The notes: generated by a model from the sequence alone, not told the origin. A stretch of 64,000 bases of DNA from Candidatus Undinarchaeales archaeon (GCA_030753015.1 JASMDC010000004.1:62001-126000); one strand, 5' to 3'. Positions 27,348 to 48,291 are shown, numbered from the stretch's first letter. Numbers and translations are program-made.

Positions 27348-30215
27348 TCACCCGATGCGCTTGATCTCGACTGCAGTGTCGTAGAAGGACGAACTCCCGC
27401 CGATGGGATCCTGGAGTCCGATGTCCTTGAGCACTGGATCAAGGCGCATGATCGGATTCCCCGACACACCAGCGCCCCTCCATGTCTGGGCCTCGGTCTT
27501 CGTCCCGTCGACATCGGTCGCCTTGGCGCCGTACTCCCAGTGGCCGTAGGAGTGGCAGATGTTCACCACACCGGGCCGGACGCCCTCTATGACTAGTGCC
27601 TTGCCCTCGACACCCTTGCTGGAGCTTGCGGACGTTATACGAATGCGGTCGCCTGTCTTGATACTCCTTGCCGCGGCGTCCTTCGAGTTGATCTCAATGG
27701 AGTTCTCGGGCTCGAGCTCCATGAGCCACTCGTTCTGGGCGGTCCGCGACTGGGTGTGGTACGACTTCTTGTAGGTGTTCAGGACGAGGGGGAAGCCCGA
27801 GTTGTCGATGGGTTTCCACATGCAATCCTTGATGGCCTCATACATAGGCAGACCGTCGTAGGTCTTGCCGGTCATGGAGTCGATGGTTGTCGCGAGCTTC
27901 TCCGAGTAGAAGAGGCAGACGCCCTTCCAGGTATGCGCGTGCACGTCGTCCTTGTAGCGCTTGGAGTGGTCCTCGAACCGCCCGCCACGGGCGAGGATGT
28001 AGTCGACCTTCTCCTGCTCCGTTGAGCCGGGGACACCGTCACCCTCGCCGGCGATGTTGGCGATACACTTCATGTACCAGTCCACCGCCGAGTTGAGCGG
28101 CATCCCGGGGCCGAATCCGTCGTCGCCGTAGCCGGGAAGCCCCATCTTCTTGGCGATATCGATGATGACGTCCTCCTCCAGGCGCGTCTCCGGGTACACG
28201 GGATCGACGAGCGGGGTACGGACCTGGCTTACCGTGGTGAGGATGGCAGGCGCCGTGTGCGTCGTTGAGTAGCGCTCCAGGTAGTGGCGGTCGGGAAGTA
28301 TGTAGTCACAGAGCGCGTCCGTCTCCCCCATGATGGTTGTGAAGGCTATGTGAAGCGGCAGCTTCTTGGAGTCCTTCAGCATCTCGATGTAGACCGATCC
28401 CGCCGGTGTCGAGTAGACCGTGTTCCCCATGTGGTTGATGAGGCACTTCACGGGATAAGGGTAGTTGTCCTTGATGCTCGGTACGATCTCCTGCCAGTTC
28501 CCGTGGAGGGCCAGGGGGAACCACGGCCGCTTTGCCGGGTAACCGTTGGTCTTGAACTCCGTGGAGCTCTCGTAGTTCTTCTTCACCCGCGTCAGTGGGA
28601 TGCCGGAGGCCTTGACCTTCCCGGGATGGAGCTCCTTTGCGAGGTTGTAGTCGTTGCCCTTCTTCCCGCCGGTCTCGTGCCAGTGGCCTCCGCCCTGGGC
28701 CATGCCGCCCTTGAAGCCCACGTTGCCGATGAGCCAGTTGAGCTCGGCGATGGCCATGGCGTTGTAGGTGCCGTTTGTGTGCTGCACCGTGCCGCGGTAG
28801 AAGTCCGCGCACGCCTTCCTCCCGTGGGATGTGAACTCGTCCGCGGCAGTGGTGATGATGTTGGCGTCCAGCCCGCAGATGTCAGCGTACTCCTGGATCG
28901 ATTTCTCCATCACCCGCTCCTTCAGGAGCTGGAACACGGTCTTTGTCTGGATGCCGTTGACATCGACTGCGTTGCCGTCGGGAGTGAAGAGGTCACCCGC
29001 GTCGGCCTTGTCGGCGATGGCGGGTGCCCCACCTGAGAGAACCACCAGTTGCTCGTCCGTGCCCTCGGGAAGGCCTGCGGCGTCGGCACGCAAGTACTTC
29101 ATGGTGTCCAGTCGCACGAGCCAGGTGGCGTCCGACCAGTTGGGGATGCCGTCGGCAGAGGCTGCGTCCTTGCTCGGGTTCTCGAGGTACTTCGTGTCGA
29201 AACGCCAGTTCTCGAAGATCCAGCGCATCATGCCCAGGGCGAACGCGGCGTCAGTGCCCATCTTGATGGGAATCCACTGGTTCGCCTTCGCTGCGGACTT
29301 GGAGTACCGCGGGTCGACGATGACCAGCTTACCGCCCCGCACTCTCATCTGGACGAGCTTGCGCGCCAGCGCCTGCATGGGGAAGTTCGCCTCGATAGGG
29401 GAAGAGCCGAACCAGATGATGTACTCGGAGTTCTCGATATCGGGCTTGAGATGGTTCTTGGGCTTGCCGCCGAGGCCTCCCTTGTGGAGGAGGAGCTCGT
29501 AGCCCACGTGGTGACTGGTCTCGCAGATGCTCGTGTGGTCGATCCGCTTGTTGGTCGTCCCAAAGGAGCTTCCGAAGAAGCGGTCCGTGAACTCCTTGCG
29601 CCCGTGCTCGGAGCGTCCCACGCTGTAGACGAGCTGGTTGGCCTTGGGACCCAGCTCGGGGGCGTTGGCGTCGATGGGGGTGTCAAGGTCGCGGATTGCC
29701 GCAAGCCCGTCCACTTGACCCTCGCCGAACAGGTCCCCGCCGTTTATGATCTCGTCGATCGCCTGGTCCCAGGAGATCCGCTTCCACTTGCCCGAGCCCC
29801 GGGGGCCCGCGCGCTTCAGCGGGTACTTCACCCGAAGGGGATCGTAGAGCTCCTTGAAGCCTGCCTGTCCCTTCACGCAGGCGGTCCCCGCGATCTTCAT
29901 GGCTTCGGACGGGTCCGTGGCGTAGGGGAGATGGGGCTCCTTCGTGCGCGGGTCGTAGGGGTTGCCGTCGATCTTGATGATCCGGCCGTCCTTGATCCGT
30001 GCACGAATAGCGCACCCGCTGTGGCACATGAGGCAGGTGCTGTACTTGACCTGCACTCCGGCGTCCATTTCAGTGTTCCCTTCCGGCCCTACCTTGTAGG
30101 CCGTTGCGGGGACGAAAAGCTTATCCCGTCCCTCGAGGGCTAGCACGGCCGCTGCCGCAGCCCCCACCTTGATCATACCGAACATGTTGCGCCGGGATAT
30201 CTTCTTGCTATTCAT
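27348..30215 (-). CDS. Tat-exported molybdopterin oxidoreductase, tetrathionate-reductase-A-like
   Basis: This catalytic subunit has about 955 residues and is of the DMSO-reductase superfamily. The N-terminus has a twin-arginine signal, KISRRNMFGMIKVGAAAAA. A [4Fe-4S] site follows, Cys61, Cys64, Cys68 and Cys113 (CLMCHSGC, then TACVKG). The region RIDHTSICETSHHVGYE near residue 225 resembles the TtrA motif, making Cys231 the likely Mo or W ligand. The segment FYRGTVQHTNGTYN also fits the TtrA/SrrA/ArrA branch. Substrates known in this branch are tetrathionate, selenate and arsenate, and sequence alone does not decide. The ATG at 30215 starts the signal peptide. Gene order is B, C, A, chaperone, moeA, tatA. 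Confidence 0.85.
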   Translation of the reverse strand: MNSKKISRRNMFGMIKVGAAAAAVLALEGRDKLFVPATAYKVGPEGNTEMDAGVQVKYSTCLMCHSGCAIRARIKDGRIIKIDGNPYDPRTKEPHLPYATDPSEAMKIAGTACVKGQAGFKELYDPLRVKYPLKRAGPRGSGKWKRISWDQAIDEIINGGDLFGEGQVDGLAAIRDLDTPIDANAPELGPKANQLVYSVGRSEHGRKEFTDRFFGSSFGTTNKRIDHTSICETSHHVGYELLLHKGGLGGKPKNHLKPDIENSEYIIWFGSSPIEANFPMQALARKLVQMRVRGGKLVIVDPRYSKSAAKANQWIPIKMGTDAAFALGMMRWIFENWRFDTKYLENPSKDAASADGIPNWSDATWLVRLDTMKYLRADAAGLPEGTDEQLVVLSGGAPAIADKADAGDLFTPDGNAVDVNGIQTKTVFQLLKERVMEKSIQEYADICGLDANIITTAADEFTSHGRKACADFYRGTVQHTNGTYNAMAIAELNWLIGNVGFKGGMAQGGGHWHETGGKKGNDYNLAKELHPGKVKASGIPLTRVKKNYESSTEFKTNGYPAKRPWFPLALHGNWQEIVPSIKDNYPYPVKCLINHMGNTVYSTPAGSVYIEMLKDSKKLPLHIAFTTIMGETDALCDYILPDRHYLERYSTTHTAPAILTTVSQVRTPLVDPVYPETRLEEDVIIDIAKKMGLPGYGDDGFGPGMPLNSAVDWYMKCIANIAGEGDGVPGSTEQEKVDYILARGGRFEDHSKRYKDDVHAHTWKGVCLFYSEKLATTIDSMTGKTYDGLPMYEAIKDCMWKPIDNSGFPLVLNTYKKSYHTQSRTAQNEWLMELEPENSIEINSKDAAARSIKTGDRIRITSASSSKGVEGKALVIEGVRPGVVNICHSYGHWEYGAKATDVDGTKTEAQTWRGAGVSGNPIMRLDPVLKDIGLQDPIGGSSSFYDTAVEIKRIG

Positions 30216-30231
30216 GATAATCACCTTCCTC

Positions 30232-31257
30232 CTAGGACAGGGGAATCGTCTGACCCCCAATTATCAGAACGTACTTCATAGCGAACACCCCGATGAGCAC
30301 GAGGAGCGACACCAGCTGGTAGGTGGCGACGGACTCTCCGCCGATGAAGACCAGAATGGCCAGAGGGATGAGCAAACCCACTACGACCTGTCCGCCGATG
30401 TACAGGGTGCTCATGCTCCCCTCGGTGAGGAGCTTGGCCGTGGCCTGGCCCTCGGCGCCCGAGTACTTCAGGACGATCATGTCCGAGAACACCAGGATCA
30501 GTTCGAAGGCAAGGAAGATCGCAAGAATCGTTCCCAGGAGCGAGATGACCTCGCCCTTCGTGGGACAGTAGTCGTCCTCAGACTCCGCCTTCACCACCTT
30601 CGCAGCGGGCTTCGGCTTGGCCTCCTCCTTGGACTCCTTGACTGTCTTCTCTTCCTTCTCCTCCTCTTCGGCCTCGTCATCCTCTTCTTCGTCAGCCTTC
30701 TTCGGGCAGCTGTGCGCGGGACCAATTATCCCGTGGACGAGGATGATGAGGGCGGCCGATGACGTGATCGCCGACACCAGGAACACCAGGGGAAGTGTGG
30801 GGCTATGCCAGAGCGGACGCTGTCGGATCACACCGAAGAGAACACCCTTGTACATCTCGATGGCAACGGCGGAGAGGAAGCCGAGCTTGCCGGCGAATTG
30901 GACGAGATCGTTCTTCCCGGTATTGAGGGCATAGAAGTAGAGCGCGCTCATCAGTGTGAAGAGAGATCCGATGTACACGTCCCAGGTCATGGGAGAGGTC
31001 ACGTTCACCCTGAAGAACAGGGTTATGAAGCGCTCAGGGCGCCCCATCTCTGCGATGATGAAGAGGGGACCGACCATGGCGAAGATCAGCGCCAGGAGGG
31101 CTGCCGTCTTCGCAATGGGCTTGAGCCGGCGTATACCGAACACCGGACCCAGGGTGGCGAGCATGAAGGAACCCGCCCCGAGCCCCAGAAGGGTCGAGTA
31201 GATCACGACGAGGTTCCCCCAGAAGAGCTCAGTGACGACCGTGTGGAAGATCGCCAT
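30232..31257 (-). CDS. NrfD/PsrC-like membrane quinol subunit with acidic insert
   Basis: This protein of about 341 residues has eight or more membrane segments and belongs to the NrfD/PsrC/TtrC family. Diagnostic parts are FWGNLVVIYSTLLGLGAGSF, EMGRPERF and SPMTWDVYIGS. It should oxidise membrane quinol and pass electrons to the B subunit. Residues 185-231 are a highly charged insert (runs such as EEEDDEAEEEEKEEK, then KPKPAAK) between membrane segments. This is unusual for the family and probably forms a flexible loop or subunit contact. The ATG at 31257 lies two bases after the B-subunit stop and follows a G-rich element. A decayed copy of the same gene's 3' end is at 32171-32365. Confidence 0.85.
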   Translation of the reverse strand: MAIFHTVVTELFWGNLVVIYSTLLGLGAGSFMLATLGPVFGIRRLKPIAKTAALLALIFAMVGPLFIIAEMGRPERFITLFFRVNVTSPMTWDVYIGSLFTLMSALYFYALNTGKNDLVQFAGKLGFLSAVAIEMYKGVLFGVIRQRPLWHSPTLPLVFLVSAITSSAALIILVHGIIGPAHSCPKKADEEEDDEAEEEEKEEKTVKESKEEAKPKPAAKVVKAESEDDYCPTKGEVISLLGTILAIFLAFELILVFSDMIVLKYSGAEGQATAKLLTEGSMSTLYIGGQVVVGLLIPLAILVFIGGESVATYQLVSLLVLIGVFAMKYVLIIGGQTIPLS

Positions 31258-31258
31258 G

Positions 31259-31954
31259 CTAGAAACCCCCTTCGTATGACTCTTCCTCAATTCTGCCCAT
31301 GATCGTTCCCTCCGGATAGATGTAGAACACGTGGGGATCGGTCCCGAGCTCGGGCTTCAGCACGATGGTCGGGTTCTGGCTGATGAGCTTGAAGGCCTCG
31401 CTATCGGGATCGGTTAGGTCGCCGAAGACGCGTGCCCTTCCCGTGCAGTTGTCTACACAGACGGGCTTCAGGCCCTTATCAACCCGGTGGGAGCAGAACG
31501 TGCACTTGTTCGCCACGCCATCGATCGGGTTGCGGAAGCGGGCGTCGTAGGGGCAGGCGACGATGCAGTAGCCGCACCCGACACAGATGTCGTAATCGAT
31601 GAGCACGATGCCGTCGTCCCTCTTGTGGGCTGCCTTCGTGGGGCAGACGGAGACGCATGGGGGGTCCTCACAGTGGTTGCACAGGCGGGGAAGGAACTGC
31701 CGTGAGACGTTCGGGTACTTGCCTTGCTCCACATCCTTCACCCATGCGCGCCATTTACCCTTGGGGACCTCGTACTCGCTCTTGCACGCTATTGTGCAGC
31801 TGTGGCACCCGGTGCATTTGCGCAGGTCGATGACCATGCCGTAACGCGGTCCGGGGTGTGTGGGATGTCCCGCCAGCGACGATATAGGCACCATCGCTGC
31901 CGCGGCGGCGGTTGCGGCGACCGCCTTTACTACGTTCCGTCTCTTTTCGTCCAA
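31259..31954 (-). CDS. Four-cluster ferredoxin subunit (TtrB/PsrB type), Tat-like N-terminus
   Basis: This 231-residue protein relays electrons from the membrane NrfD subunit to the molybdoenzyme. Cysteine groups for four [4Fe-4S] clusters are CTGCHSCTIACK, CNHCEDPPCVSVCP, CVGCGYCIVACP and CTFCSHRV with a later CVDNC. The N-terminus, DEKRRNVVKAVAATAAAAAMVP, looks like a Tat signal with RR and a hydrophobic stretch, so the protein itself may be exported or anchored. The start is a TTG at 31954, seven bases after GGAGGG, while the nearby ATG is in another frame. It is the first gene of the operon, behind a structured, AT-rich upstream region. Confidence 0.86.
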   Translation of the reverse strand: MDEKRRNVVKAVAATAAAAAMVPISSLAGHPTHPGPRYGMVIDLRKCTGCHSCTIACKSEYEVPKGKWRAWVKDVEQGKYPNVSRQFLPRLCNHCEDPPCVSVCPTKAAHKRDDGIVLIDYDICVGCGYCIVACPYDARFRNPIDGVANKCTFCSHRVDKGLKPVCVDNCTGRARVFGDLTDPDSEAFKLISQNPTIVLKPELGTDPHVFYIYPEGTIMGRIEEESYEGGF

Positions 31955-36309: not shown

Positions 36310-37557
36310 TCATTCCTGCTCGTGTTCGCACACGTCTCTGACGTCGTCCTGGGACAACGCCCGCCGCAGCTGCGCCGTGAGCACGGGTATCACCTCGTTC
36401 ACGTCCCCCACGATACCGAAGTCGGTGTGGTCGAAGATGGGGGCCTCCGGATCGTTGTTGATGGCCACGATGACCTCCGATGTCTGCATGCCCGCCATGT
36501 GCTGGACGGCACCGGAGATGCCGCAGGCGATGTAGAGCCGTGGGCTGACTGTCCTGCCGCTCAGTCCGACCTGATGTGCGTGATCGGTCCAACCCTCGTC
36601 CACCAGCGGCCGGCTCACGCCAACCACGCCCCCCAGGAGATCCGCAAGCTCCCGGAGCATCAACAGTCCCTTCCGGTCACCAAGACCGCGCCCGCCGGCG
36701 ACGACCACATCGGCGTCGACGATGCTCTCCTCCCGTACACCACAGACGATGTCAAGGACACGGATGCGCTCGGTGAGGCCGGACAGGTCGGACACCTGAC
36801 GCGCGATGTCGCCCTCGTGATGGGGGTTCGACAGCGGCCTGGGGAAGGTGCGCGGGCGCACGGTGGCCATCTGCGGCCGGCTGTCAGGGCAGACGATGGT
36901 GGCCATGACGTTGCCGCCGAAGGCGGGGCGCGTCTGGAGAAGGAGCCGTCGTCCCTCGTGCTCGCCAATTGCCAGACCGGTGCAGTCGGCCGTCAGTCCC
37001 GTTCGCAGTCGCACCGCCAGACGCGGGCCCAGGGATCTACCCAGGGAGGTGGCGCCGATCAGCAGGATGCTCGGACACACCTCGCCTACGAGCCCGGCCA
37101 TCGCCGCTGTGAGGGCTTCCACGCGGGGATTGGTGAGGCAAGGGTCGTCGAGCAGAAGGACGCGGTCGGCCCCCGACATCACCAGGGAGCTGGCCAGTCC
37201 TTCATCAACTGGTCCCGGCAGGGCGCACACCAGAGGCTCGGCCAGCTCGTCGGCCAGCTCCCGGCCCTTGCTCAGGAGCTCGAAGGCAACGTCCCGCACG
37301 GCATCACCATCGCGCTCGGCGAATACCATGACACCACATCCTTCGTCAGGTCCCCGGCGCGGGACGGCCTCGCGAAGGATGAGCGCCACCTCGGGACAGG
37401 CTTTGATGCACGCACCGCACAGGCGGCAGCTATCGTCGATGACGGGGTACGGATCCAGCAAGACCGAGCCGAAGGGGCAGACGTCGCGACACACGCCGCA
37501 TCGCGAGCACCGGTCGCGGTCCAGATCGATGGCGCCCTGATCCCTTTTGCCGCTCAT
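36310..37557 (-). CDS. etfA: Electron-transfer flavoprotein alpha subunit with N-terminal 2x[4Fe-4S] domain
   Basis: This 415-residue EtfA begins with a ferredoxin domain, CSRCGVCRDVCPFGSVLL and CRLCGACIKACPEVALIL. The EtfA nucleotide-binding part follows. The C-terminal FAD domain has VVAGGRGLGDRKGL, SRPLVDEGW, VGLSGRTVSPRLYIACGISG and AINNDPEAPIFDHTDFGIVGD. EtfA proteins with ferredoxin domains occur in bifurcating or confurcating ETFs, such as the lactate dehydrogenase ETF of acetogens. The ATG at 37557 overlaps the etfB stop (ATGA). It is the last gene of the operon with two glutamate synthase parts, so it probably supplies reductant from ferredoxin or another donor to the FMN barrel. Confidence 0.9.
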   Translation of the reverse strand: MSGKRDQGAIDLDRDRCSRCGVCRDVCPFGSVLLDPYPVIDDSCRLCGACIKACPEVALILREAVPRRGPDEGCGVMVFAERDGDAVRDVAFELLSKGRELADELAEPLVCALPGPVDEGLASSLVMSGADRVLLLDDPCLTNPRVEALTAAMAGLVGEVCPSILLIGATSLGRSLGPRLAVRLRTGLTADCTGLAIGEHEGRRLLLQTRPAFGGNVMATIVCPDSRPQMATVRPRTFPRPLSNPHHEGDIARQVSDLSGLTERIRVLDIVCGVREESIVDADVVVAGGRGLGDRKGLLMLRELADLLGGVVGVSRPLVDEGWTDHAHQVGLSGRTVSPRLYIACGISGAVQHMAGMQTSEVIVAINNDPEAPIFDHTDFGIVGDVNEVIPVLTAQLRRALSQDDVRDVCEHEQE

Positions 37558-38384
37558 AGGCCGCCATCCCCTACGATGCGCTGTTCGAGGAGCACCTGGA
37601 CGAGCCCGGAGACCGCGTCCTCGGGATCCCCGTCGAACACCCTGCCCCGTGCCCGCTTCGGCGGCGGGAACACACGTACTACGCGGGTCGGTGAGCCCGC
37701 GAGGCCCAGGCGCCGGATGTCCACGTCGAGGTCCTTGGCCGTCAGTACCTTGAAGGATCGCTCCCGGGCCGCCATCCATTGTTCGAGGTCGGGCATCCGC
37801 GGCTCATTGATCCCCTTGACGACGGTGACGAGGCAGGGGAGGTCCACCACGAGCGTCTCGACCCGAAGGTCCAGCTCCCGCTCCACGGTGAGCGCCCCTT
37901 CATCCGGCCCCGAGACGGACGTGACATAGCACACGTGGGGTATCGCCAGGAGCTCGGCCAGTCCCGGCCCCACCTGACCAGTGTCCCCGTCGGTCGTCTT
38001 GGTACCGCAGAGGATCAGGTCGAACCGGCCGCACGCCGCCACACCTCGGGCGAGCGTGTAGGATGTAGCGAGGGTGTCAGCGCCGGCGAAGGCCCGGTCG
38101 GAGAGGAGCACAGCGCGATCGCAGCCTAGGGCCAGCGCGTACCGTAGAGCGTGCTCTGCCTGGGGCGGGCCCATGCTCAGCGCGGTCACCTCAGCGCTGC
38201 ACCCCGTGGCCGCCAACCGCCCGCGTATGCGCACCGCTTCCTCGAGTGCATAGAGGTCGAAAGGGTTGAGCTGCGAGGCGACACCGGTGCGCTTCAGCGT
38301 CCCCGTCCCCTCGTCGGTCTCCACCGTCTCGGAGGCCGGCACCTGCTTGACACAGACAATGATGGAGAACGTATCGCCGGTCAC
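37554..38384 (-). CDS. etfB: Electron-transfer flavoprotein beta subunit
   Basis: This 276-residue EtfB has family motifs FSIIVCVKQVPASETVETDE, NPFDLYALEEAVRI and LALGCDRAVLLSD. The nucleotide-binding signature is CGTKTTDGDTGQVGPGLAELL, which in bifurcating ETFs surrounds the second FAD. A further segment DLPCLVTVVKGINEPRMP is typical of the beta subunit. The GTG start at 38384 overlaps the stop of the upstream glutamate synthase gene (GTGA), so the two are translationally coupled. Presence of both ETF subunits inside a glutamate synthase operon, with no acyl-CoA dehydrogenase gene, is the main clue to function. Confidence 0.9.
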   Translation of the reverse strand: MTGDTFSIIVCVKQVPASETVETDEGTGTLKRTGVASQLNPFDLYALEEAVRIRGRLAATGCSAEVTALSMGPPQAEHALRYALALGCDRAVLLSDRAFAGADTLATSYTLARGVAACGRFDLILCGTKTTDGDTGQVGPGLAELLAIPHVCYVTSVSGPDEGALTVERELDLRVETLVVDLPCLVTVVKGINEPRMPDLEQWMAARERSFKVLTAKDLDVDIRRLGLAGSPTRVVRVFPPPKRARGRVFDGDPEDAVSGLVQVLLEQRIVGDGGL

Positions 38385-40858
38385 GCGAGCACCTCCACCC
38401 GAGGGACGACCTTGCGGTACACCGCCTGCGGCGGGCAAAGGCGTCCGTCCACCGTGAGGAGCTCGCGCAGCGCAATGCCGAACAGCCGCTCGTTCTCCTC
38501 GAGGTAGGGTCTGATGAGCTCCCAGTCGTCGGCGGAGAGCTCGGTGAAGACGCCTCCGTTGAGCTGGCCCTCATCCAGCTGACTACGAGGATCGCGGATG
38601 TAGAGCGCGCCACCCGACGCGAGCGAGAACAGGTTCCCGCCGGAGAAGGGGGTGTCAAGCTCGTGCAGGGTGCCGTCTGGGAGGGCCGCAACGCCGTTGA
38701 GCACGGCGAAGCCGCCACCGGCAAGCGGATCGCCCGCCATGAAGCTCTCAGCCAGGTAGTCGAGGCAGGTGCCGTTGATGACCACCCGCGGACCCCCCAC
38801 GGCGTTGATAAGGGGACGGCCCGCGGCGTTGCCCCGCACGTAGACCTCGCCGCCCTTGGCGCCGTAGAGGAAGGTCTGTCCCACGTCCCCGTGGACCACC
38901 AGGCGTCCCGCGGCGAGGATCTGGCCCAACTGGTCCTGGCCATCGGCGTGGACGCGGACCTCGCCGTTCATGAGACCTGAGCCCAGGTAGTCGCCGGGGC
39001 TGCCGTACACGTCGATGATCACCGGCTCCTCCTGCCCCAAGAGCCCGCACCCCACGAACCGCTGGCCGCACAGGTCGAAGGCGATGATGTGCCGCCATCC
39101 GGCACGATAGGCGTCCACGATGGACCGGGAGAGGGAGTCTGGGCCCTCCATGGGATATCCCCTGCCGCGCACCACGAGGGTGGCTCCGGAGCCGGGTGGC
39201 GAGGGAACAGGGCCCGTCCCCGCGTGGCGGTGAAGCCCGCCCACGTCAGGTCCGGGGAGCACCATGGTGCGGAGGAGGAGGTCGTTGATCGCGCTCTCGA
39301 TGAGCGTCCGACGCCATCCTGGTGAGACGTGCGGCGTGTCTACCCCGCGGTCCAGGAGCAGGGTGAGGAGCCCGAGCACGGTCCGGGGTCCAGGTCCTTC
39401 GGTGTCGTGGGCACTCGCGGCGAGCCCGCTCAGCAGGCCGCGCAGTCCGTCACTGGTCGCCCCTGCAAGCAGCGGGCGGAGCCACAAGAAGGCGCTTTCG
39501 ACCCCGTTGCGTGCGAGGTGGGCCATCACCGTGTCCGCTGACGGGATGGATCCGTTACGGGAGGAGGGCGTTGCTCGCGGACAGTCCACCTCACCACCGT
39601 ACTTGTCGCGGCATACGAGCAGGCCGTCCTCCAGGGAGAACGCGAAGGCGCCACCATCGGTGTGGCTCCCGCCCCGGGCGTTCCAGTACAGGTCCGCCCG
39701 CGTCGGCACACCTGATCGCTCGCCGTGGATGTTCTCCAGCACGGCGTCGATGGCCTGCTTCTCGCTGGCGACGAGCCCGATATCCAGCTCCCCCCGCTGG
39801 AGGGCGAACACCTGGGGGCGGAGCATGGAGGTATCGGTGATGCCCACCAGCTGCAGCAGGCCCCGGTCCGGCTTGGCGCGCCCGATGATGAAGAACCACG
39901 GGCCGTCGGGCGAGCCATGGATGTGGGTGCGCTGGATGGCTGCGTACACCTCCTGCTTCCCTTCGGGCAGCATGAGGAAGTCACGCTCGGTGGTGGGGGC
40001 GAGCGCCTCGATGATGTACTCTAGCGGGTAGCCATACACTCTGTCCAGCAGGTCGAAGAGCTGGACGGACACCTCGGTGTCCGTGAGGAACAGGGGCGTC
40101 ATCCCGTGCTGTCCCAGATAGTCGCGCACGCTCTGGTAGTTGGCGAAGTCACCGTTGTGCACTAGCGCCTCGTTGAGGCCAATGAAGGGGTGGGCGCCAC
40201 CGGGGTGCCAGACCCTGCCCTTGGTTGGGTAGCGCTGGTGGGCGATCCAGAGTCGGGCGTGAAGGTCGCCCAGGCGGTAGTTGGTGATTACCTGCTCGGC
40301 GAACCCGACTATCTTGAACACCAGAAGGTCCCGCCCGTGACAGAGCACGAAGGCCTGCGGGTCCGGGCGGTCAGTGTAGTAGGCGGTGTTGAGGGCGAAG
40401 GAGTTGGCGTGGACGAAGGCGTCCTCCTGCGAACGGCGGTCCAGGTCCGCAAACCCCCGCTCCGCGACGAACGCAGCCAGCTGCTCCTCCCGTGGTCGAC
40501 AGAAGTACCGCCACACCTCGGGAGGCGGCACCTCCAGCCCCGGGACGTCATGCCAGTCATCGATGGCAGGCACCCGTTCGGACCGGGCCACTGCAAACGG
40601 CCCGAGGACGTGCCGGTCCTCGACCTCCTCCCGGCACTCTGGATCCAGGTAGGCCACCTGGACGAGGTAGTGGGAGCGCAGAACCTCGGGCGACACTCCC
40701 AGCTGTGCCGGATCGAGGCCGGCGGCCACGATACCACCGCCCTTACCGTTACCGCGGTTGTTCATCTGTCGGGCGGCCGCCTCCAGGTGCCGTCCGGCCA
40801 CGGGCTCGGAGGCCAGGAACCCCACGACCCCGCATCCGCCCTCGGCCGGCTGTCTCAA
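38381..40858 (-). CDS. Split glutamate synthase: class II amidotransferase plus GXGXG domain
   Basis: This protein of about 825 residues starts with a class II glutamine amidotransferase domain. The probable nucleophile is the Cys in QPAEGGCGVVGF, nine residues from the TTG start at 40858. Further motifs are LWIAHQRYPTKG, AHPFIGLNEALVHNGDFANY and FLTDTEVSVQLFD. The C-terminal 200 residues are the GXGXG beta-helix of glutamate synthase, with GSGLMNGEVRVHADGQDQLG and GAKGGEVYVRGNAAGRP. The central FMN domain is absent and lies in the preceding gene. The TTG overlaps that gene's stop (TTGA). The amidotransferase should release ammonia from glutamine for the barrel encoded by the partner. An eight-residue pre-Cys segment may be processed. 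Confidence 0.8.
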   Translation of the reverse strand: MRQPAEGGCGVVGFLASEPVAGRHLEAAARQMNNRGNGKGGGIVAAGLDPAQLGVSPEVLRSHYLVQVAYLDPECREEVEDRHVLGPFAVARSERVPAIDDWHDVPGLEVPPPEVWRYFCRPREEQLAAFVAERGFADLDRRSQEDAFVHANSFALNTAYYTDRPDPQAFVLCHGRDLLVFKIVGFAEQVITNYRLGDLHARLWIAHQRYPTKGRVWHPGGAHPFIGLNEALVHNGDFANYQSVRDYLGQHGMTPLFLTDTEVSVQLFDLLDRVYGYPLEYIIEALAPTTERDFLMLPEGKQEVYAAIQRTHIHGSPDGPWFFIIGRAKPDRGLLQLVGITDTSMLRPQVFALQRGELDIGLVASEKQAIDAVLENIHGERSGVPTRADLYWNARGGSHTDGGAFAFSLEDGLLVCRDKYGGEVDCPRATPSSRNGSIPSADTVMAHLARNGVESAFLWLRPLLAGATSDGLRGLLSGLAASAHDTEGPGPRTVLGLLTLLLDRGVDTPHVSPGWRRTLIESAINDLLLRTMVLPGPDVGGLHRHAGTGPVPSPPGSGATLVVRGRGYPMEGPDSLSRSIVDAYRAGWRHIIAFDLCGQRFVGCGLLGQEEPVIIDVYGSPGDYLGSGLMNGEVRVHADGQDQLGQILAAGRLVVHGDVGQTFLYGAKGGEVYVRGNAAGRPLINAVGGPRVVINGTCLDYLAESFMAGDPLAGGGFAVLNGVAALPDGTLHELDTPFSGGNLFSLASGGALYIRDPRSQLDEGQLNGGVFTELSADDWELIRPYLEENERLFGIALRELLTVDGRLCPPQAVYRKVVPRVEVLA

Positions 40859-43416
40859 CCCATCACCTCCTCGCCCAGTTCCCGGCCCTCGGCCATGAGG
40901 AGGAGCTCGGGATGTCCCCGCAGGTCGGCGATGGAGCCCAGACCCAGACCGAGGCAGATGGCCCGCAGCTGTGCCTCCCAGGAGCGCCGGAGGTTGACGA
41001 TGCGCTGGCGACCCCACTGCGGATCTATGAGCGCCGCGCGCCGGGGATCAGTGGTGGTGATGCCCAGCGGGCACCCCCAGTCCTTCTCACAGCTCCCCAA
41101 GCGCTCGCAGCCCAGCGCCACGAGGTCCGCTGTCCCGACCATGGCCCCGTCGGCGCCCAGTGCCACAGCCTTGGCTATGTCGAACGCCGTCCGTACCCCG
41201 CCCGAGGCGATGAGCACCACCTCGTCGCGAACGCCCTCCGACTGCAGGAAGTCGTGTACCTTGGGGATGGCGTACTCCACGGGCATGGCGATGTTCTTCT
41301 TGCTCACCTCAGGGGCGGCGCCGGTGCCGCCGTAGGAGCCGTCGAGGTTGATGACGTTGCTCCCGGCGTGGTAGCTGCCCACCGCCACCATGTCGACGTC
41401 GGTGGGGGTGGACACCTTGGTGATGACCAGGGCGTCGGGATTGATGGACCTGATCCAGTCGATGTGCTTCTTGTGGTCCTCCACCGAGTACACCGAGTGG
41501 AAGGGGAAGGGGGAGAACAGGGAGATGCCGGGGACCGAGCCCCGGGCGATGGCCACGGCCTTGGACACCTTCTCGGCGAGGAGGTGGCCGCCCAGCCCGG
41601 GCTTGGCACCCTGGGCGTACTTGAACTCCACCACGGGCACGCTGGCGATGGTCTCCTCGCTCACCCCGAACAGCCCGGTCGCCACCTGGGTGATGACGTG
41701 ATCGCGGTAGGGGACCAGCTCCCGGGGAAATCCGCCCTCGCCCGTGGACACCAGGCTCCCGGTGTCCGCCGATGCCATGGCGCGGGCGAGCATGACGTTG
41801 CTGGAGATGGAGCCGAAAGACATCCCGCCGCCGTACAGGGGCATGCGCAGGGTGTACTGGGGACCGTTGCTCCGACGGTTGAGGGGGAGGGCGAGATCCA
41901 CCGACCGGTCGACGGTCCCGCGCTCCATGAGCGCATCAAGGTCCGTACCATCGGTCTCGAAGGGAAGGAAGAGGGCATCGAACCCGCCGCCAGAGCGACC
42001 GGCACGGTAGTCAATGGAGCTTGCCGGGGGATGGCCGGTCCGGGCCTGCTCGATGGTGGCGCGCAGGAGCTCAGGTGTCCAGCGCATATCGCCGATCAGG
42101 CCCTCGCGGAAGCCGCCGGCCCGGTCACGCAGGGGAGACCCGGCGGGGAGCCTCCCCGTCACCAGTTCCCTGAAGGCGGCCTCCTCGTGGGCGTAGAAGA
42201 TGACGCGGCCCGTCTCCCCGCGCAGCCGTCGCACCTCCCGCATCCCCATGGCGCCCAGCACCTCCAGCAGCTGGTTGCGCCAGGCGGCCATGAGGTTGCA
42301 GATATGGGCGGCACCCTCTGTGGGTTCGACATCGCCGTGCTCCACGGGACAGGGGTACCGGGTGTCGGCCCAGAGCATGCACCCGAGCGCCACCATGAGC
42401 GCGAGGTCCACGGTGACCGCGTCAGCGCCGCACGCCAGCGCCTTGGGCACGTGCTCGGCATCGGCGATCCCGCCGCTAAAAAGCACCGTCACGGCGTCTC
42501 GACTCTCTGCCTCCAGCAGCAGCCTGTGGAGCCGGTGAAGAGTGCGGCCGGCGAAGCGACCCGATCCGTCCCGGTCCCGGGCATGGTGGTCGGCGTTGAG
42601 GTGGATCCAGTCAAGCTCTACGCCACCAGCCACCAGGGCGGCGAGGGCGTCGGCAGCGCGGAGCGTGCACGGTGCCCGCACGCCCACTAAGGCGTCGGGA
42701 GCGAGGTCCCTGAGCACGCCAAGGAGATCGACGACCGTCTCCCTGTCCAGCTCGTCATTGTCCAGGCTGAGTTCGATGGCAGGGAGGCCCGCGGAAGCGA
42801 GCTCGTTCACACGCTCGACCTGGCTCGCCTCGATCCGGAGCACGACCGAGTGACGGAACGGTTCACGGTCCTCCCCCCACTGGGACACGGGCACCACCGC
42901 CAGTGTCCCGACATCCTGTGCTGCACGCAGCACGGACAGGTGGGCGCCCCGGCCCGAGGTCGGGATGTTGGGGAGCTCGAAGAGCACGGGGAGTGGAAGG
43001 TCGATGTGGGGCGGCATCTCGGTGGCTACCCTGCCGTCGGGATGGAACCGGAGGAAGGACGGCGCCCGTCCGAGCTGAACGGTCGTCGAGATGTACTCGC
43101 GCCCGTGGATGCCGTCCCGGGTGGGCCGCACGATCTCGGACATGTCGAACCAGATGCTGTCGAAACCAACACCCGCGAACCGACCCCCATACCCAGCCCC
43201 GGAGATGGGGATGCGGCCGGTGACGGCCTGGTAATGGGTGCGGCTGAGCACTTGGGATGTCCAGTGGGGATCACCACCCCTGCCGATGTCGAAGGCAAGG
43301 CGTCCGAACCGTACGTAATCATCGACCTTCTGGAGGTGGAAACGGGTGGGCAGCCCCGTCGGCTCCACTTGCCGGACCGCTATGGTATACCTGCCCGAGC
43401 CTGCTGGGTTGACCAT
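40855..43416 (-). CDS. Split glutamate synthase: FMN-barrel subunit with extra N-terminal barrel-like domain
   Basis: This protein of about 853 residues has a C-terminal glutamate synthase FMN domain: YGGGMSFGSISSNVMLARAM, STGEGGFPREL, KYAQGAKPGLGGHL, GSYGGTGAAPE and IASGGVRTAFDIAKAVALGA. The cysteines of the family's [3Fe-4S] cluster follow in GCERLGSCEKDWGCPLGI. The N-terminal 450 residues contain a second, weaker copy of the barrel's end: LFSGGIADAEHVPKALACGA, then DLALMVALGCM, then NLMAAWRNQLLEVLGAMGM, mirroring IVNLRRSWEAQLRAICLGLG. So the chain appears internally duplicated. It should convert 2-oxoglutarate plus ammonia to glutamate using FMN and iron-sulfur electrons. It is the first gene of the operon and diverges from an Lrp regulator. 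Confidence 0.8.
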   Translation of the reverse strand: MVNPAGSGRYTIAVRQVEPTGLPTRFHLQKVDDYVRFGRLAFDIGRGGDPHWTSQVLSRTHYQAVTGRIPISGAGYGGRFAGVGFDSIWFDMSEIVRPTRDGIHGREYISTTVQLGRAPSFLRFHPDGRVATEMPPHIDLPLPVLFELPNIPTSGRGAHLSVLRAAQDVGTLAVVPVSQWGEDREPFRHSVVLRIEASQVERVNELASAGLPAIELSLDNDELDRETVVDLLGVLRDLAPDALVGVRAPCTLRAADALAALVAGGVELDWIHLNADHHARDRDGSGRFAGRTLHRLHRLLLEAESRDAVTVLFSGGIADAEHVPKALACGADAVTVDLALMVALGCMLWADTRYPCPVEHGDVEPTEGAAHICNLMAAWRNQLLEVLGAMGMREVRRLRGETGRVIFYAHEEAAFRELVTGRLPAGSPLRDRAGGFREGLIGDMRWTPELLRATIEQARTGHPPASSIDYRAGRSGGGFDALFLPFETDGTDLDALMERGTVDRSVDLALPLNRRSNGPQYTLRMPLYGGGMSFGSISSNVMLARAMASADTGSLVSTGEGGFPRELVPYRDHVITQVATGLFGVSEETIASVPVVEFKYAQGAKPGLGGHLLAEKVSKAVAIARGSVPGISLFSPFPFHSVYSVEDHKKHIDWIRSINPDALVITKVSTPTDVDMVAVGSYHAGSNVINLDGSYGGTGAAPEVSKKNIAMPVEYAIPKVHDFLQSEGVRDEVVLIASGGVRTAFDIAKAVALGADGAMVGTADLVALGCERLGSCEKDWGCPLGITTTDPRRAALIDPQWGRQRIVNLRRSWEAQLRAICLGLGLGSIADLRGHPELLLMAEGRELGEEVMG

Positions 43417-43569
43417 CTCGATGCCTTGCCGGGGTTGGCACTATGCCAATCTAATATACTGATATTGGACTCTAGATATATAACACTGAAAGAAAATAAT
43501 AAAATTGGAAATAAATTTATAGTAATTAACGAAAATAATTAACAAAGTAGAAAAATCGAGGGAAATACC
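43417..43569. promoter_or_regulatory. Divergent promoter between glutamate synthase operon and Lrp gene
   Basis: This strongly AT-rich 153-base region separates the two start codons. TAATTAAC occurs twice as direct repeats, at 43523-43530 and 43536-43543. They lie 27 or more bases before the GTG of the regulator and are candidate Lrp sites. TATA-like strings ATAAATTTATAG (plus) and GATATATAACAC lie within. The arrangement fits autoregulation and control of glutamate synthesis by the adjacent Lrp/AsnC protein, but this is inferred. Confidence 0.5.
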
Positions 43570-44070
43570 GTGCCACAGATTACGAAACATTCCATCGATG
43601 CCACGGACCTGCGCATCCTGGACCTCCTCATGGACGATGCCCGACGCACCTACCGTCAACTTGCCGACGAGGTCGGTGTGTCACCGGTAACGGTGATGAA
43701 GCGCGTCCACAGCATGGAGCGCACGGGCGTCGTCCAGGGCTATACTGCGCGGCTGGACTACCAGGCACTGGGATACGACATCCTGGCCATCATCCAGCTG
43801 CGGATCTCTAAGGGGAAGCTCCTGGAGGTGGAGAAGCGCATCGCCACCCACAACGCCGTGTTCGCCGTGTACGACATCATCGGCCCCTTCGATGCACTGC
43901 TGCTGACGCGGTTCCGCACGACACCAGACATGGACCGGTTCCTTAAGACCATCCAGACCTACGATTTCGTGGAGCGGACCGAGACTATACTGGTGCTGAA
44001 CACGATCAAGGACGAGCCGCTGCGGGTAGGGGAGGACCGGTCTCCCCCGCTGCCGCCGCGCCTGCCGTAG
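43570..44070 (+). CDS. Lrp/AsnC-family transcriptional regulator
   Basis: This 166-residue protein has an N-terminal winged helix-turn-helix, DATDLRILDLLMDDARRTYR followed by QLADEVGVSPVTVMKRVHSM. The C-terminal ligand-binding RAM domain runs from ALGYDILAIIQLRISKGKL to FVERTETILVLNTIKDEP. Such proteins sense amino acids and form octamers. Translation starts with GTG at 43570. It diverges from the glutamate synthase/ETF operon, which makes that operon its most likely target. The C-terminal tail RSPPLPPRLP is proline-rich and unusual. A near-copy of the DNA encoding this tail occurs at about 48475-48516. Confidence 0.88.
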   Translation: MPQITKHSIDATDLRILDLLMDDARRTYRQLADEVGVSPVTVMKRVHSMERTGVVQGYTARLDYQALGYDILAIIQLRISKGKLLEVEKRIATHNAVFAVYDIIGPFDALLLTRFRTTPDMDRFLKTIQTYDFVERTETILVLNTIKDEPLRVGEDRSPPLPPRLP

Positions 44071-44127: not shown

Positions 44128-45180
44128 TCACGGGGGCCTGGCCACGCGGTCCCCACTGAAGGCGACGATGTGCGCTGGGGCCGCCGTCACGCTGACCCTC
44201 GTTCCTCGCTCGACCAACAAGGTGGAGGGACGGCTGCTGTGCACCAGCTTCCCCGAGGCGAGGCTCAGGGTGTAGATGTTCTCCGAGCCCCTGAACTCCT
44301 GTCCTTCCACGACCGCTCCACCCTGGTCATCCACCGTGAACGTGATGTCATCGGGCCTGATCATGAGCTGAACGTCCGATCCCTCCGCCAATCCCGCTTT
44401 GTTCGGGAACACACCCAGTTCGGTCTCGATGCCCTCCTTTTCCACGAGGCCGTCGATGAAATCGGCCTGCCCCACGAAGTCTGCGACAAAGCGGGTGGAT
44501 GGGAAATGATAGATCTCCTCCGGGGTTCCGACCTGCTCGGTCCGCCCAGCGTTCAGCACGGCCACGCAGTCGGCCATGGAGAAGGCCTCCGCCTGGTCGT
44601 GCGTCACCAGGATCGCGGTGGAGTGTGCCTTTTTCAGGATGTTCAGCACCTCGTCCCGCATCTGGGCACGCATGTCGGCATCGAGGTTGCTGAGAGGTTC
44701 ATCCAGTAGTATGACCACCGGACAGGGGGCAAGCGCCCTGGCCAGGGCGACGCGTTGCTGCTGGCCGCCGGAGAGCTGGTGCGGATAGCGATCCCCCAAT
44801 CCCTCCAGCCCGACGAACTCCAGCATGTTATCAACGATCTTCTCACTCTTCTCCCTGTCGAACCCGGTCAGCCCATAGGCGATGTTGTCCTTCACCCTCA
44901 GGTGGGGGAACAGGGCGTAGCCCTGGAACACCATGCCGACATTCCGCCTATTGGGGGGGATGAACACCCCGCCGCCGGCGACGGGCTCACCGTCGATCAG
45001 TATCTCACCGCTGTCCGGTGTCTCCACTCCGGCGATCAGGCGGAGGGCCGTGGTCTTCCCGCATCCGCTGGGACCGAGGAAGGCAAATATCTCCCCCTTC
45101 TCCACCGTAAAGGACATGTCATCGATTGCCTTCACGTCGTCGTAGCTCTTGGCCACGTTCCTCAATTCGATTCTCGTCAT
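44128..45180 (-). CDS. Iron(III)-type ABC transporter ATPase (FbpC-like)
   Basis: This ABC ATPase of about 350 residues has Walker A LGPSGCGKTTALRLIAG, a Q-loop in VGMVFQGYALFPH, signature HQLSGGQQQRVALARAL, Walker B VILLDEPLSNLDADMR and switch ILVTHDQAEAF. A C-terminal regulatory OB-like domain of about 110 residues follows, beginning near DFIDGLVEKEG. This is the form that drives FbpABC/AfuABC uptake and also sulfate or putrescine importers. The ATG at 45180 fits the upstream G-rich ribosome site better than the ATG at 45189. The permease and binding protein lie upstream on the same strand, though 139 bases separate this gene from the permease. Confidence 0.88.
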   Translation of the reverse strand: MTRIELRNVAKSYDDVKAIDDMSFTVEKGEIFAFLGPSGCGKTTALRLIAGVETPDSGEILIDGEPVAGGGVFIPPNRRNVGMVFQGYALFPHLRVKDNIAYGLTGFDREKSEKIVDNMLEFVGLEGLGDRYPHQLSGGQQQRVALARALAPCPVVILLDEPLSNLDADMRAQMRDEVLNILKKAHSTAILVTHDQAEAFSMADCVAVLNAGRTEQVGTPEEIYHFPSTRFVADFVGQADFIDGLVEKEGIETELGVFPNKAGLAEGSDVQLMIRPDDITFTVDDQGGAVVEGQEFRGSENIYTLSLASGKLVHSSRPSTLLVERGTRVSVTAAPAHIVAFSGDRVARPP

Positions 45181-45319
45181 AGATCCCATCCCCCTCGTCC
45201 TCGGGACGTCACTTCAGGGCCCTCCTGCAAAGGTCCTTGCCGTAACCCGATCGTGCATCGAGCGAGTCCAGCAGGGCCGTATGGAGGCCCACGTCGTCAT
45301 CATAATCTCCATCACGGAT

Positions 45320-46927
45320 TCACCCGTTCTCATCGCTGCCCGGTTCCTGGGAGAGGATGATCATCATGGAGAGGGCCGAAACGCCCACCAATAGAAGTGC
45401 CGGGATCGCGGCACGTGCAAAGTAGACATCGTCCGTGGCTGACCACACGCGGGTCGCCAGGGTGCTGAAGCCCGTGGGCGCCAGGAGGAGCGTCGCCGGG
45501 AGCTCCTTCATGGTAGTGAGGAACACAAGGGACGCGCCGGTGAGCAGGCCTGGGGAGATAAGGGGCAGGGTAACCGTACGCATGGCACGCCAGGGCGTGG
45601 CACCCAGGCTCCGGGCCGCCTCCTCCAGCTGGGGGCTCAACTGCAGGAGGGATGCGCGGATCGTGCCCACAGCCTGGGGGATGAACAGCACCACATAGGC
45701 GAAGATGAGCATGGCCGTGGACTGGTAGAGGGGCATGGCGTACGTTACGCCGAAGAACACCAGGGAGAGGGCGACCACGATGCCCGGTAGGGCGAATCCG
45801 ATGTAGGTGCTCCGCTCCAGCAGGTTGCTGAGCAGTCCAGGGAACCGCACCGAGAGCGAGGCTACGGGAATTGCTGCGAGCATGGCAACGAGGGCCGTCA
45901 GTCCGGAGACGTAGATGGAGTTCGCGGCGAGATGCCATACGGGAGTGAGCTGCTCCCCGGCGGAGAGCCCGCGCACAAGCCAATAGGTGATCACGCTCAG
46001 GGGCATCACCAGCGACAATCCCACGATTGTTGTGCAGAAGAGCAGGGCAGGCCAACGCCAGCGGCCCAGCTCGACAGTACCGGGGGATCTCCTGGAGCCT
46101 GTGCCGCTGGTGTAGTACCTGCCCCCGCTGCGGGCCAGGTATTCCAAGATGAGGAGAATTGCCGCTAGCCCGACCAGGGAGATGGAAAGAACGGCCGCCA
46201 TGCTCCGATCGAAGCTGGACTGGTACTGGATGTAGATGACCCTGGTGAATGAGTCGAAGCGCATCAGGGAGGGCGTCCCGAAGTCTCTCAGGGTGTAGAG
46301 GGCCACCAACAGCCCACCCGCCGCGATGGAGGACTTGAGGAGGGGGAGGGTCACCCGAATGAAAGTCTGCCAGCGACCGTGCCCGAGGCTGCGCGAGGCC
46401 TCCTCGAGGGCCGGGTCGAGGGAAAGCAGGCTGGCACGCACGGTCAGGAGGACGTAGGGATAGCTGAAGAGGGTGAGCGACAGCAGCGCACCGGGCCATC
46501 CGTAGATGGACGGCAGCCGCTGTACACCGAGCAGCTCGAGCCATGTCTGGAGGATGCTCCCCTTGGGGCCGAGGGCGGCGATGATGGCGAAGCTCCCCAC
46601 GTAGCTGGGGATAACCAGGGGGAGTGCCGTGGCCACCGACCAGAACCGTCTTCCCGGGAGGTCCGTCCGCACCGTGAGGAAGGCAAGGGGCACGGCGATG
46701 AGGGTGGACGCAACGGTGACGGCGAGGGCAAGGAGTGCGCTGTTGACAAAGACCCGGATCGTGCGGGGATGGAGGAGGAGATCCCAGACGCCATCCCCTA
46801 CACCGGCCGTGCGGATGACCAGATAGGCGAGCGGGAACAGCATGGCAGAGGCGACGAGGATGGAGGCGAGGACCAGGGGAAGGGGGGGCCTGGGTGAGGG
46901 GATGAGGCGCGTCAGCAACGTCACCAT
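45320..46927 (-). CDS. Iron(III)-type ABC transporter double permease (FbpB-like)
   Basis: This permease of about 535 residues has 12 membrane segments made of two fused halves. Each half has the EAA coupling motif: LEEASRSLGHGRWQTFIRVTLP and LEEAARSLGATPWRAMRTVTLP. Such duplicated permeases are typical of FbpB/ThiP-like systems. With FbpC and the exported binding protein it would import ferric iron. The 266 bases between this gene and the binding-protein gene (46928-47193) contain no gene or clear promoter, so the order A-B-C is probably one transcript with long spacers. The 130-base gap before fbpC likewise shows nothing. Confidence 0.87.
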   Translation of the reverse strand: MVTLLTRLIPSPRPPLPLVLASILVASAMLFPLAYLVIRTAGVGDGVWDLLLHPRTIRVFVNSALLALAVTVASTLIAVPLAFLTVRTDLPGRRFWSVATALPLVIPSYVGSFAIIAALGPKGSILQTWLELLGVQRLPSIYGWPGALLSLTLFSYPYVLLTVRASLLSLDPALEEASRSLGHGRWQTFIRVTLPLLKSSIAAGGLLVALYTLRDFGTPSLMRFDSFTRVIYIQYQSSFDRSMAAVLSISLVGLAAILLILEYLARSGGRYYTSGTGSRRSPGTVELGRWRWPALLFCTTIVGLSLVMPLSVITYWLVRGLSAGEQLTPVWHLAANSIYVSGLTALVAMLAAIPVASLSVRFPGLLSNLLERSTYIGFALPGIVVALSLVFFGVTYAMPLYQSTAMLIFAYVVLFIPQAVGTIRASLLQLSPQLEEAARSLGATPWRAMRTVTLPLISPGLLTGASLVFLTTMKELPATLLLAPTGFSTLATRVWSATDDVYFARAAIPALLLVGVSALSMMIILSQEPGSDENG

Positions 46928-47193
46928 CGGATCAGTCTCCAGATGTTACAGTGCATGTTTTATCGTTTCCCCTCCTTCGACGTGACTGGCGCTCATCCCG
47001 CGGGACGTGCCCCCCGCCGGAGGGTCGGGGCTCTCGTGCTTCACCCCTTTCGTCCGTGCGTTGCCGGCCTCGGACTCCGCGTGCATCCTCCACAGGCACG
47101 ACCCGCCGCTCACATGGTCACCTCGGGAGGTCGGTTCCGGCAGCGGGCGGGAGTGGCGGCCCCCACCCACGCTTGCGGATCCCTGTCCTCCCG

Positions 47194-48225
47194 CTACAGG
47201 GCACCAACATCCTGAAGGAGCTTCAGCGTCCCCCTCAGATCGTCCAGGTCGCTCAGGTCGATGTCCGGCGAATTGATGTCCGAGAGGCGCTTCTGCGGTC
47301 CGAGCACGCTCGTTCCATTGACCAGCGGGTACTCGTAGGTCTGCGTGGCGTAGGAGGTCTGTGCTCCCTCGTTGAGCATGAACCCGATGAACCTCTCTGC
47401 AAGCGCTTGATCAGTTGAGGTGTCAACGATCCCCAGCCCCGCCACGTTGATCATGGAGCCGGCGTCGCCCGTGGTGTAGTGGTGCGCTACGGGGAACCCG
47501 GGGTCCTCCGCTTGGAAGCGGTGGAGGTAGTAGTTGTTCACGAAGCCTACGTGGATCTCTCCGCGGCCAAGGGCCGCGACGATGGGTGAGTTCTTGGGGT
47601 AGACCTGGGGCTCGTTGGCTATGATCCCTGTCAACCACTCCCGCGCCTTCTCCTCGCCCTCGAGCACCCTGAAGGCGGTGATGAATGACTGGAAAGAGCC
47701 GTTTGTCGGCGCCCAGCCGATCTTACCACCGCCCCATTTCTCCTCGACGAACCCCCAGATGGAGTCGGGAAGCTCCTCCTTGCTCACCAGCTTCATGTTG
47801 TAGTCGACCGTCCTCGCCCTGCCGGAAATGCCGATCCATTTCCCCGAGCGGGAGCGAAATCGAGGCTCCACACGCTGCAAGAGCGCGTCGGAGAGTGTGG
47901 ACAGGCGTCCCTCCTTGGAGAGTGCGCCGAGCGCCCCTGCGTCCTGAGCGAAGAAGAGGTCGGCAGGGCTGTTCTTTCCCTCCTCCAGGATCGTGGCGGT
48001 CAGCTCGGCCGTCTTGCCGTACCGAACCTCGGTCTTGATGCCTGTCTCCTCCTTGAACTTGTCGATCATAGGGCCGACAAGGCTCTCCCCGCGACCGGAA
48101 TAGATTGTCAGTGTCGGCGGTTCGGCCGAGACGCTCCCGCCGGCCGGCCCCTGTTTCAGACAACCTGCGGTCGCGACGCCCAGTGCCGCCACGCCCAGGT
48201 ATTTCACGAGTGTCCGCCTATTCAT
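47194..48225 (-). CDS. Iron(III)-type ABC transporter binding protein (FbpA-like), Tat/lipoprotein signal
   Basis: This solute-binding protein of about 343 residues starts MNRRTLVKYLGVAALGVATA. Its signal combines a twin-arginine-like motif with a lipobox-like ATAGC, giving lipid attachment at Cys. Binding-protein motifs follow: TLTIYSGRGESLVGPMIDKF, ADLFFAQDAGALG and a late segment DAGSMINVAGLGIV. The tyrosines in NYYLHRFQ fit the metal-binding YY pair of FbpA/FutA proteins. The frame allows starts up to 48279, so the exact start is uncertain. A TATA-like element and a DtxR-like palindrome lie just upstream and support iron control. Confidence 0.82.
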   Translation of the reverse strand: MNRRTLVKYLGVAALGVATAGCLKQGPAGGSVSAEPPTLTIYSGRGESLVGPMIDKFKEETGIKTEVRYGKTAELTATILEEGKNSPADLFFAQDAGALGALSKEGRLSTLSDALLQRVEPRFRSRSGKWIGISGRARTVDYNMKLVSKEELPDSIWGFVEEKWGGGKIGWAPTNGSFQSFITAFRVLEGEEKAREWLTGIIANEPQVYPKNSPIVAALGRGEIHVGFVNNYYLHRFQAEDPGFPVAHHYTTGDAGSMINVAGLGIVDTSTDQALAERFIGFMLNEGAQTSYATQTYEYPLVNGTSVLGPQKRLSDINSPDIDLSDLDDLRGTLKLLQDVGAL

Positions 48226-48291
48226 CACGGTGTAGCCGGGTTCAGGATTGTCGAGCGTTGGGGTGAACATGGTCATCACTTTTTTTGTAAA

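Follow-up and report, generated by a model that had tools for sequence, protein, structure and literature searches.

In classical glutamate synthases (GltS), electrons from GltD or ferredoxin pass via a [3Fe-4S] cluster to FMN, with potentials of about −240 mV for FMN and −280 mV for the cluster (−190 mV with 2-oxoglutarate) (PMC8097209). The catalogues of bifurcating enzymes consulted here comprise acyl-CoA dehydrogenase, lactate dehydrogenase, quinone, transhydrogenase, hydrogenase, formate, and heterodisulfide systems; in none of these does a step of amino-acid biosynthesis provide the exergonic branch (PMC6085437, PMC5861303). In Ldh-EtfAB of Acetobacterium woodii, changing the motifs DGDTAQVGP, RxFxG, or SPT, or Arg205 of EtfA, abolishes or strongly reduces bifurcation/confurcation (PMC9232219). 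ETF-bifurcating complexes and GltS are each known; a search of the open-access literature (subscription papers were outside its scope) found no matching description of a link between the two.

Layout of the locus

The locus described here lies in the window, i.e. the whole stretch of 64,000 nucleotides analysed, from a Candidatus Undinarchaeales archaeon. Its features are as follows.

43570-44070, plus strand: divergent Lrp/AsnC-family regulator (AsnC HTH and ligand domains)
43417-43569: AT-rich stretch between the divergent genes, read directly and presumed to hold the operon promoter
43416-40855, minus strand: gene 1, synthase subunit with FMN double barrel, 853 aa (Pfam PF01645, E 1.6e-97)
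40858-38381, minus strand: gene 2, glutaminase subunit with GATase and GXGXG, 825 aa (Pfam GATase_6 and GXGXG)
38384-37554, minus strand: gene 3, etfB, bifurcating type as judged by motifs, 276 aa (Pfam ETF, E 3e-42)
37557-36310, minus strand: gene 4, etfA with N-terminal ferredoxin domain, 415 aa (Pfam ETF, ETF_alpha, and two Fer4)

Reading of the three junctions between the four genes revealed a 4-base stop/start overlap at each (TTGA, GTGA, and ATGA), as a preliminary description of this DNA had claimed, and GGAGG precedes the second and third starts (genes 2 and 3). The genes named in that description, an FMN barrel, an amidotransferase with GXGXG, etfB, and etfA with two [4Fe-4S] motifs, agree with the Pfam matches and with two CxxCxxCxxxC motifs in EtfA, and no gltD was present within the cluster, again as described. 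The interval given there (36310-44070) contains the four genes but also includes the divergent Lrp/AsnC regulator, which is not one of them. Gene 2 starts with TTG at 40858 behind GGAGGTGAT; a longer GATase reading frame from GTG at 41017 was rejected because the TTG start has this element and keeps the conserved EGG-C near the N-terminus.

From its position, the Lrp/AsnC protein is a possible local regulator of the operon. Near a Fer4-bearing GltS of another Asgard genome lies a gene (L167:11551-12060) whose N-terminal sequence likewise indicates a probable Lrp/AsnC-type regulator. The surroundings of the operon in the window contain a tetrathionate/polysulfide-reductase-like molybdoenzyme cluster (27348-31954), a 1020-aa HdrA-like protein (20345-23407), and a PhnSTU2-like ABC transporter (44128-48279). 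Ribosomal protein S28e was found in the window's genome and, among the controls, was detected only in the four archaeal ones. On S28e and neighbours, the genome is assigned to the archaea; its assembly contains no SSU sequence. The genome has a size of 3.85 Mb versus 0.6-1.1 Mb in nine genomes of the same phylum and class, an unusual contrast, and its assembly is rated 5% contaminated.

A re-cut glutamate synthase

The gene 1 product carries the GltB central domain (residues ~48-422, a degenerate barrel) and the FMN barrel (~441-839) on one chain. Its C-terminal half matched GltB FMN barrels of solved structures (E 2e-49), and the N-terminal half is a diverged relative of the C-terminal one, with 22-27% identity between halves across loci. 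The 853-aa protein, previously listed as an FMN barrel only, is a double barrel whose N-terminal half is the counterpart of the GltB central domain. In the AlphaFold (AF2) model (mean pLDDT 78), residues 49-842 aligned to GltB 452-1171 (central plus FMN) with Z 34.3, and the best seven structure matches were all glutamate synthases (Z 29.5-34.3 versus 25 for the next family). The large rmsd of 14.6 Å to GltB is most likely due to a different setting of the two modelled barrels relative to each other. Gene 2 encodes a class II GATase, in which a short propeptide with EGG at its end precedes Cys9, joined to a GXGXG β-helix; its AF2 model (pLDDT 85), which also ranked solved GltS first, aligned over residues 9-821 to GltB 1-1498 (578 residues, rmsd 3.2 Å, Z 29.3), with Cys9 superposed on Cys1 of GltB.

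All four GltB domains (class II GATase, central, FMN barrel, and GXGXG) were thus found across the two genes. Since the models align to complementary parts of GltB, gene 1 to central plus FMN and gene 2 to GATase plus GXGXG, the two subunits form a complete but re-cut glutamate synthase, and the earlier claim of a split, permuted enzyme was confirmed. The window has two chains with re-ordered domains and not the single chain of standard GltB in the order GATase-central-FMN-GXGXG; the synthase is therefore classed as a GltB variant.

The functional residues were compared with relatives from other genomes. EGG-C9, R209, HNGD, and TDTE of gene 2 are conserved (25 relatives), and E560, K599, Q602, K605, and R625 of gene 1 are invariant (72 relatives). 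The 2-oxoglutarate/FMN site of gene 1 is present, with TGEGG, the KYAQGAKPGLGG block, and Arg625 conserved in the same 72 sequences; in its conserved block, KxAQGAKPGxGG is followed by H where GltB has Q, the single change versus GltB. The putative Fe-S ligands C770, C776, and C782 are kept as Cys in 72/72, 72/72, and 71/72 relatives, respectively, and this triad matches that of the GltB [3Fe-4S] cluster with a spacing one residue longer, predicting a cluster at this site. A fourth cysteine, giving CxxCxxCx5C near the FMN, occurs in 65/72 members of the wider family; Leu at this position (residue 773 in the window) is confined to the ETF-linked clade described below and its two-member bacterial sister. 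This distribution of the three-Cys pattern suggests that the cluster may have changed before or with ETF recruitment.

The split GltS family bears on an open point, the possible origin of the GltS central domain from a duplicated FMN barrel (PMC8097209). N-terminal barrel genes, e.g. L059:9734-11143 and L037:9737-11113, matched Glu_synthase (to 1e-22), that of L059 also Glu_syn_central (1e-7). As judged by these matches to the FMN-barrel family, an origin of the central domain by FMN-barrel duplication appears favoured.

The ETF and its pairing with GltS

The best PDB match of EtfA was CarE (6fah, E 5e-100, aligned from residue 10 and including the Fd domain), that of EtfB was LctB (7qh2, E 1.7e-68), and both subunits scored far better to these than to canonical ETFs. 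A PHROGs scan of EtfB gave no match. The N-terminal ferredoxin domain of EtfA with its two CxxCxxCxxxC motifs is CarE-like. EtfB has the b-FAD motif as DGDTGQVGP (reference: DGDTAQVGP), the changed position not being among those mutated in the A. woodii study, and both the NAD site RAFAG (RxFxG) and the SPT anchor are present. EtfA contains the QTRPAFGG-type Arg that contacts N5 of b-FAD; this Arg is found in all five GltS-linked ETFs known from our searches and is also kept in the genome's second ETF, so it does not discriminate. The second ETF adjoins an acyl-CoA dehydrogenase gene, has DDDANQVGG, and is without RxFxG, SPT, and the ferredoxin domain. A lone ETF for β-oxidation was rejected for the window pair, as that role fits the second ETF. 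By its motifs, the window ETF is of the bifurcating type, and its nearest relatives among solved ETFs are bifurcating. EtfAB of C. propionicum, a close relative of bifurcating ETFs with two FADs, nevertheless appears to be non-bifurcating (PMC5861303, PMC9232219), so that such motifs are no proof of bifurcation. All five GltS-linked EtfBs have DGDTGQ, whereas the other tree members showing the motif have DGDTAQ. In Lokiarchaeota, the Pro of DGDTAQVGP is lost in all four EtfBs and the NAD-site Arg of RxFxG in three (Ile or Ser; L006, L007, and L009); on this sequence evidence, EtfBs lacking the Arg may use another (hydride) donor.

A gene 1 search of 84,980 species genomes yielded 80 loci. The preliminary description had proposed looking for the four-gene order in other archaeal genomes, and four Lokiarchaeota (L006, L007, L009, and L014) have it in identical form, at ~50% identity and with most junctions overlapping or abutting. 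With the order kept in these four, the arrangement is not due to chance. A glnA gene lies directly upstream (78-79 bases) in L006 and L007, and a nadE-type gene downstream in L006 and L009. No further locus among the 80 had etfBA beside GltS, and the four-gene module was not found in nine other, small genomes of the window's own phylum. Among 227 Asgard genomes, ten more gene 1 relatives were detected (56-65% identity over the C-terminal barrel), and those with readable neighbourhoods were separate-gene forms without ETF. Matches of the Fd-EtfA type occurred in 162 of the 227 genomes, in sampled cases usually standing alone or next to a dehydrogenase of the acyl-CoA or GlcD type.

In a tree of EtfB plus EtfA, the five GltS-linked pairs formed one clade among 25 (98/92), and the same five formed one clade in the GltS tree (SH-aLRT 99, quick method). 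The branching order agreed in both, running from the window through L014 to the remaining three Lokiarchaeota; in each tree the window sits on a long branch, which makes its exact depth uncertain. Because both partners are monophyletic, the pairing is, as far as these trees indicate, old and stable. The sister GltS of the ETF clade (L008 and L015) have no adjoining ETF. Within the tree sample, the GltS-linked ETF clade was never beside another dehydrogenase, and in the Loki genome G013 no EtfA match apart from the GltS-linked one passed the cut-off. ETF homologues always paired with another dehydrogenase had been named as evidence that would speak against a link to GltS; Asgard Fd-ETFs are indeed commonly beside acyl-CoA or GlcD-type dehydrogenases, but the GltS-adjacent ones form a clade of their own.

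A gltD elsewhere had been named in the same sense. The whole genome of the window was searched, and no free GltD partner for the synthase was found: the two clear GltD-like (Fer4_20) proteins are, by neighbourhood, NfnB beside NfnA and PreT beside PreA. With both assigned to other partners, a hidden GltD was rejected. The same genome has two glutamate dehydrogenases near a NuoE/NuoF-like plus NfnAB cluster (L094, C84:98000-117000). A 423-aa protein with a Glu_synthase/FMN_dh domain and unclear function lies several kb from tetrapyrrole genes (L098:8395-9666, minus strand).

Electron transfer, alternatives, and known systems

The gene order in Lokiarchaeota, the monophyletic ETFs and GltSs, and the lack of a free GltD in the genome support the earlier suggestion that the iron-sulfur ETF is the electron source of the synthase, which we regard as probable. 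We somewhat favour an ETF-coupled, bifurcating glutamate synthase, with the four gene products in one complex. Subunits 1 and 2 would rebuild a complete GltB, and EtfAB would replace GltD. Cys9 of subunit 2 would hydrolyse glutamine, and the released ammonia would be transferred to 2-oxoglutarate lying before the FMN of subunit 1, in its C-terminal barrel. NADH, the presumed donor, would reduce the EtfB flavin (b-FAD), which would split the electron pair: one electron would pass via the mobile EtfA FAD, docking near the three-cysteine Fe-S cluster, to this cluster and on to FMN, and the second would leave through the ferredoxin domain of EtfA to reach external ferredoxin. Run twice, this would give 2 NADH + Gln + 2-oxoglutarate + 2 Fd(ox) → 2 NAD+ + 2 Glu + 2 Fd(red).

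The 2-oxoglutarate + NH4+/glutamate couple has a potential of about −0.12 V, and the hydrolysis of glutamine a free energy of about −14 kJ/mol. From these values, the potential of the GltS couple is estimated at about −0.05 V, well above that of NADH. This estimate disagrees with the confurcation considered in the preliminary description, which would need glutamate to be oxidised back to glutamine and 2-oxoglutarate, a strongly uphill reaction. Confurcation is thus probably the wrong direction, and the favoured course is bifurcation, in which NADH donates and ferredoxin is the second acceptor. The estimated potential resembles those of crotonyl-CoA (−10 mV) and caffeyl-CoA (−30 mV) (PMC5861303). 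For the overall reaction given above, about −33 kJ/mol was estimated, compared with about −40 kJ/mol for Bcd-ETF and −36 kJ/mol for Car (PMC5861303); GltS with NAD(P)H is estimated to waste about 50 kJ/mol. Against the bifurcating reading stand the apparently non-bifurcating EtfAB of C. propionicum, the loss of the NAD-site Arg in three and of the Pro in all four Loki EtfBs, the sister GltS without adjoining ETF, and the other partners that Asgard ETFs of this type mostly serve.

A GltS coupled to the ETF may also work without bifurcation, EtfAB relaying NADH electron pairs, or single electrons from reduced ferredoxin via the Fd domain, to the Fe-S cluster and FMN, so that GltD is replaced and no ferredoxin is reduced. 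Coupling in itself is backed by the operon, the trees, and the full set of domains, the two-FAD ETF of C. propionicum offers a non-bifurcating parallel, and the Arg loss in three Loki EtfBs would fit a ferredoxin-only route there. We nevertheless consider a simple relay doubtful, as it would not need the mutation-tested bifurcation residues, all of which, including Arg and Pro, are retained in the window ETF. The coupling itself would be absent if the ETF served a dehydrogenase elsewhere and were merely co-transcribed with GltS, the latter taking ferredoxin directly as in plants and cyanobacteria. GltS relatives without adjoining ETF or GltD are common, and in Asgard archaea the Fd-ETF type is widespread next to genes of the GlcD type or for acyl-CoA dehydrogenase; the separate clade of GltS-linked ETFs, which had no other dehydrogenase as neighbour in the sample, the overlapping start/stop coupling retained across lineages only ~50% identical, the sole EtfA match in G013, and the acyl-CoA dehydrogenase already accompanying the window genome's other ETF render this improbable.

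The synthase could also be a related aminotransfer enzyme powered by the ETF, e.g. of the N-methylglutamate synthase (Mgs) type. Mgs-type enzymes share the GATase, GXGXG, and FMN parts, and the conserved block departs from GltB at a single residue (H for Q). Both subunits, however, align with genuine GltB chains along their entire folded length, neither the nucleophile of the GATase nor the motifs close to it vary, and two Loki loci have glnA just upstream, which makes an Mgs-type function very unlikely.

For the bifurcating glutamate synthase, we see about even chances that nitrogen assimilation is the exergonic half driving NADH-dependent ferredoxin reduction, which would define a new bifurcating class in at least two archaeal lineages. 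If so, part of the GltS energy would be captured as reduced ferredoxin, linking nitrogen assimilation to energy conservation, and glutamate synthesis may also charge this low-potential carrier via an ETF type that normally serves quite different enzymes. This would matter for energy-limited anaerobes, including relatives of the eukaryotes' archaeal ancestor.

GltBD (A. brasilense, 1ea0/6s6s) and Fd-GltS (Synechocystis, 1ofd) share with the window the GATase, central barrel, FMN barrel, GXGXG helix, N-terminal Cys, and Fe-S cysteines near FMN; the window differs in its two polypeptides, an Fe-S spacing of Cx5Cx5C instead of Cx5Cx4C, the absence of GltD, and etfBA next in the operon. The split double-barrel GltS of Deltaproteobacteria, Chloroflexi, Aminicenantes, Acidobacteria, and other Asgard archaea have the same GATase-GXGXG fusion and central/FMN barrels, but usually two barrel genes, often Fer4 insertions, a four-Cys motif, no etfBA, and often a GlcD/GlcF-like FAD/Fe-S oxidase ahead. 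This ~600-aa FAD plus [4Fe-4S] protein lies directly upstream of separate-gene GltS at L060:7942-9744, L065:7809-9647, and some twenty loci of the same kind (in Aminicenantes, Syntrophaceae, Dehalococcoidia, and others; two proteins scanned), and may serve as a further module for electron input or as a 2-hydroxyacid dehydrogenase that provides 2-oxoglutarate. In ANME archaea, F420-dependent glutamate synthases have been proposed from GltS subunits clustered with FrhB (PMC9012536). There, too, GltS adjoins a non-GltD electron-input gene, with FrhB/F420 as input and, in the parts of that paper drawn on here, no bifurcation proposed; to that extent, these clusters indicate that GltS input modules can be swapped.

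On the ETF side, Ldh-EtfAB (LctBCD, A. woodii, 7qh2) provides the nearest solved relative of the window EtfB, with the same mapped residues; its partner is an FAD-containing lactate dehydrogenase, it has one EtfA cluster, and it runs as confurcation. The bifurcating caffeyl-CoA reductase-ETF complex CarCDE (A. woodii, 6fah) has the two-[4Fe-4S] N-terminal ferredoxin domain of EtfA and all bifurcation motifs in common with the window, whereas the partner is caffeyl-CoA reductase in Car and an amidotransferase/FMN barrel in the window.
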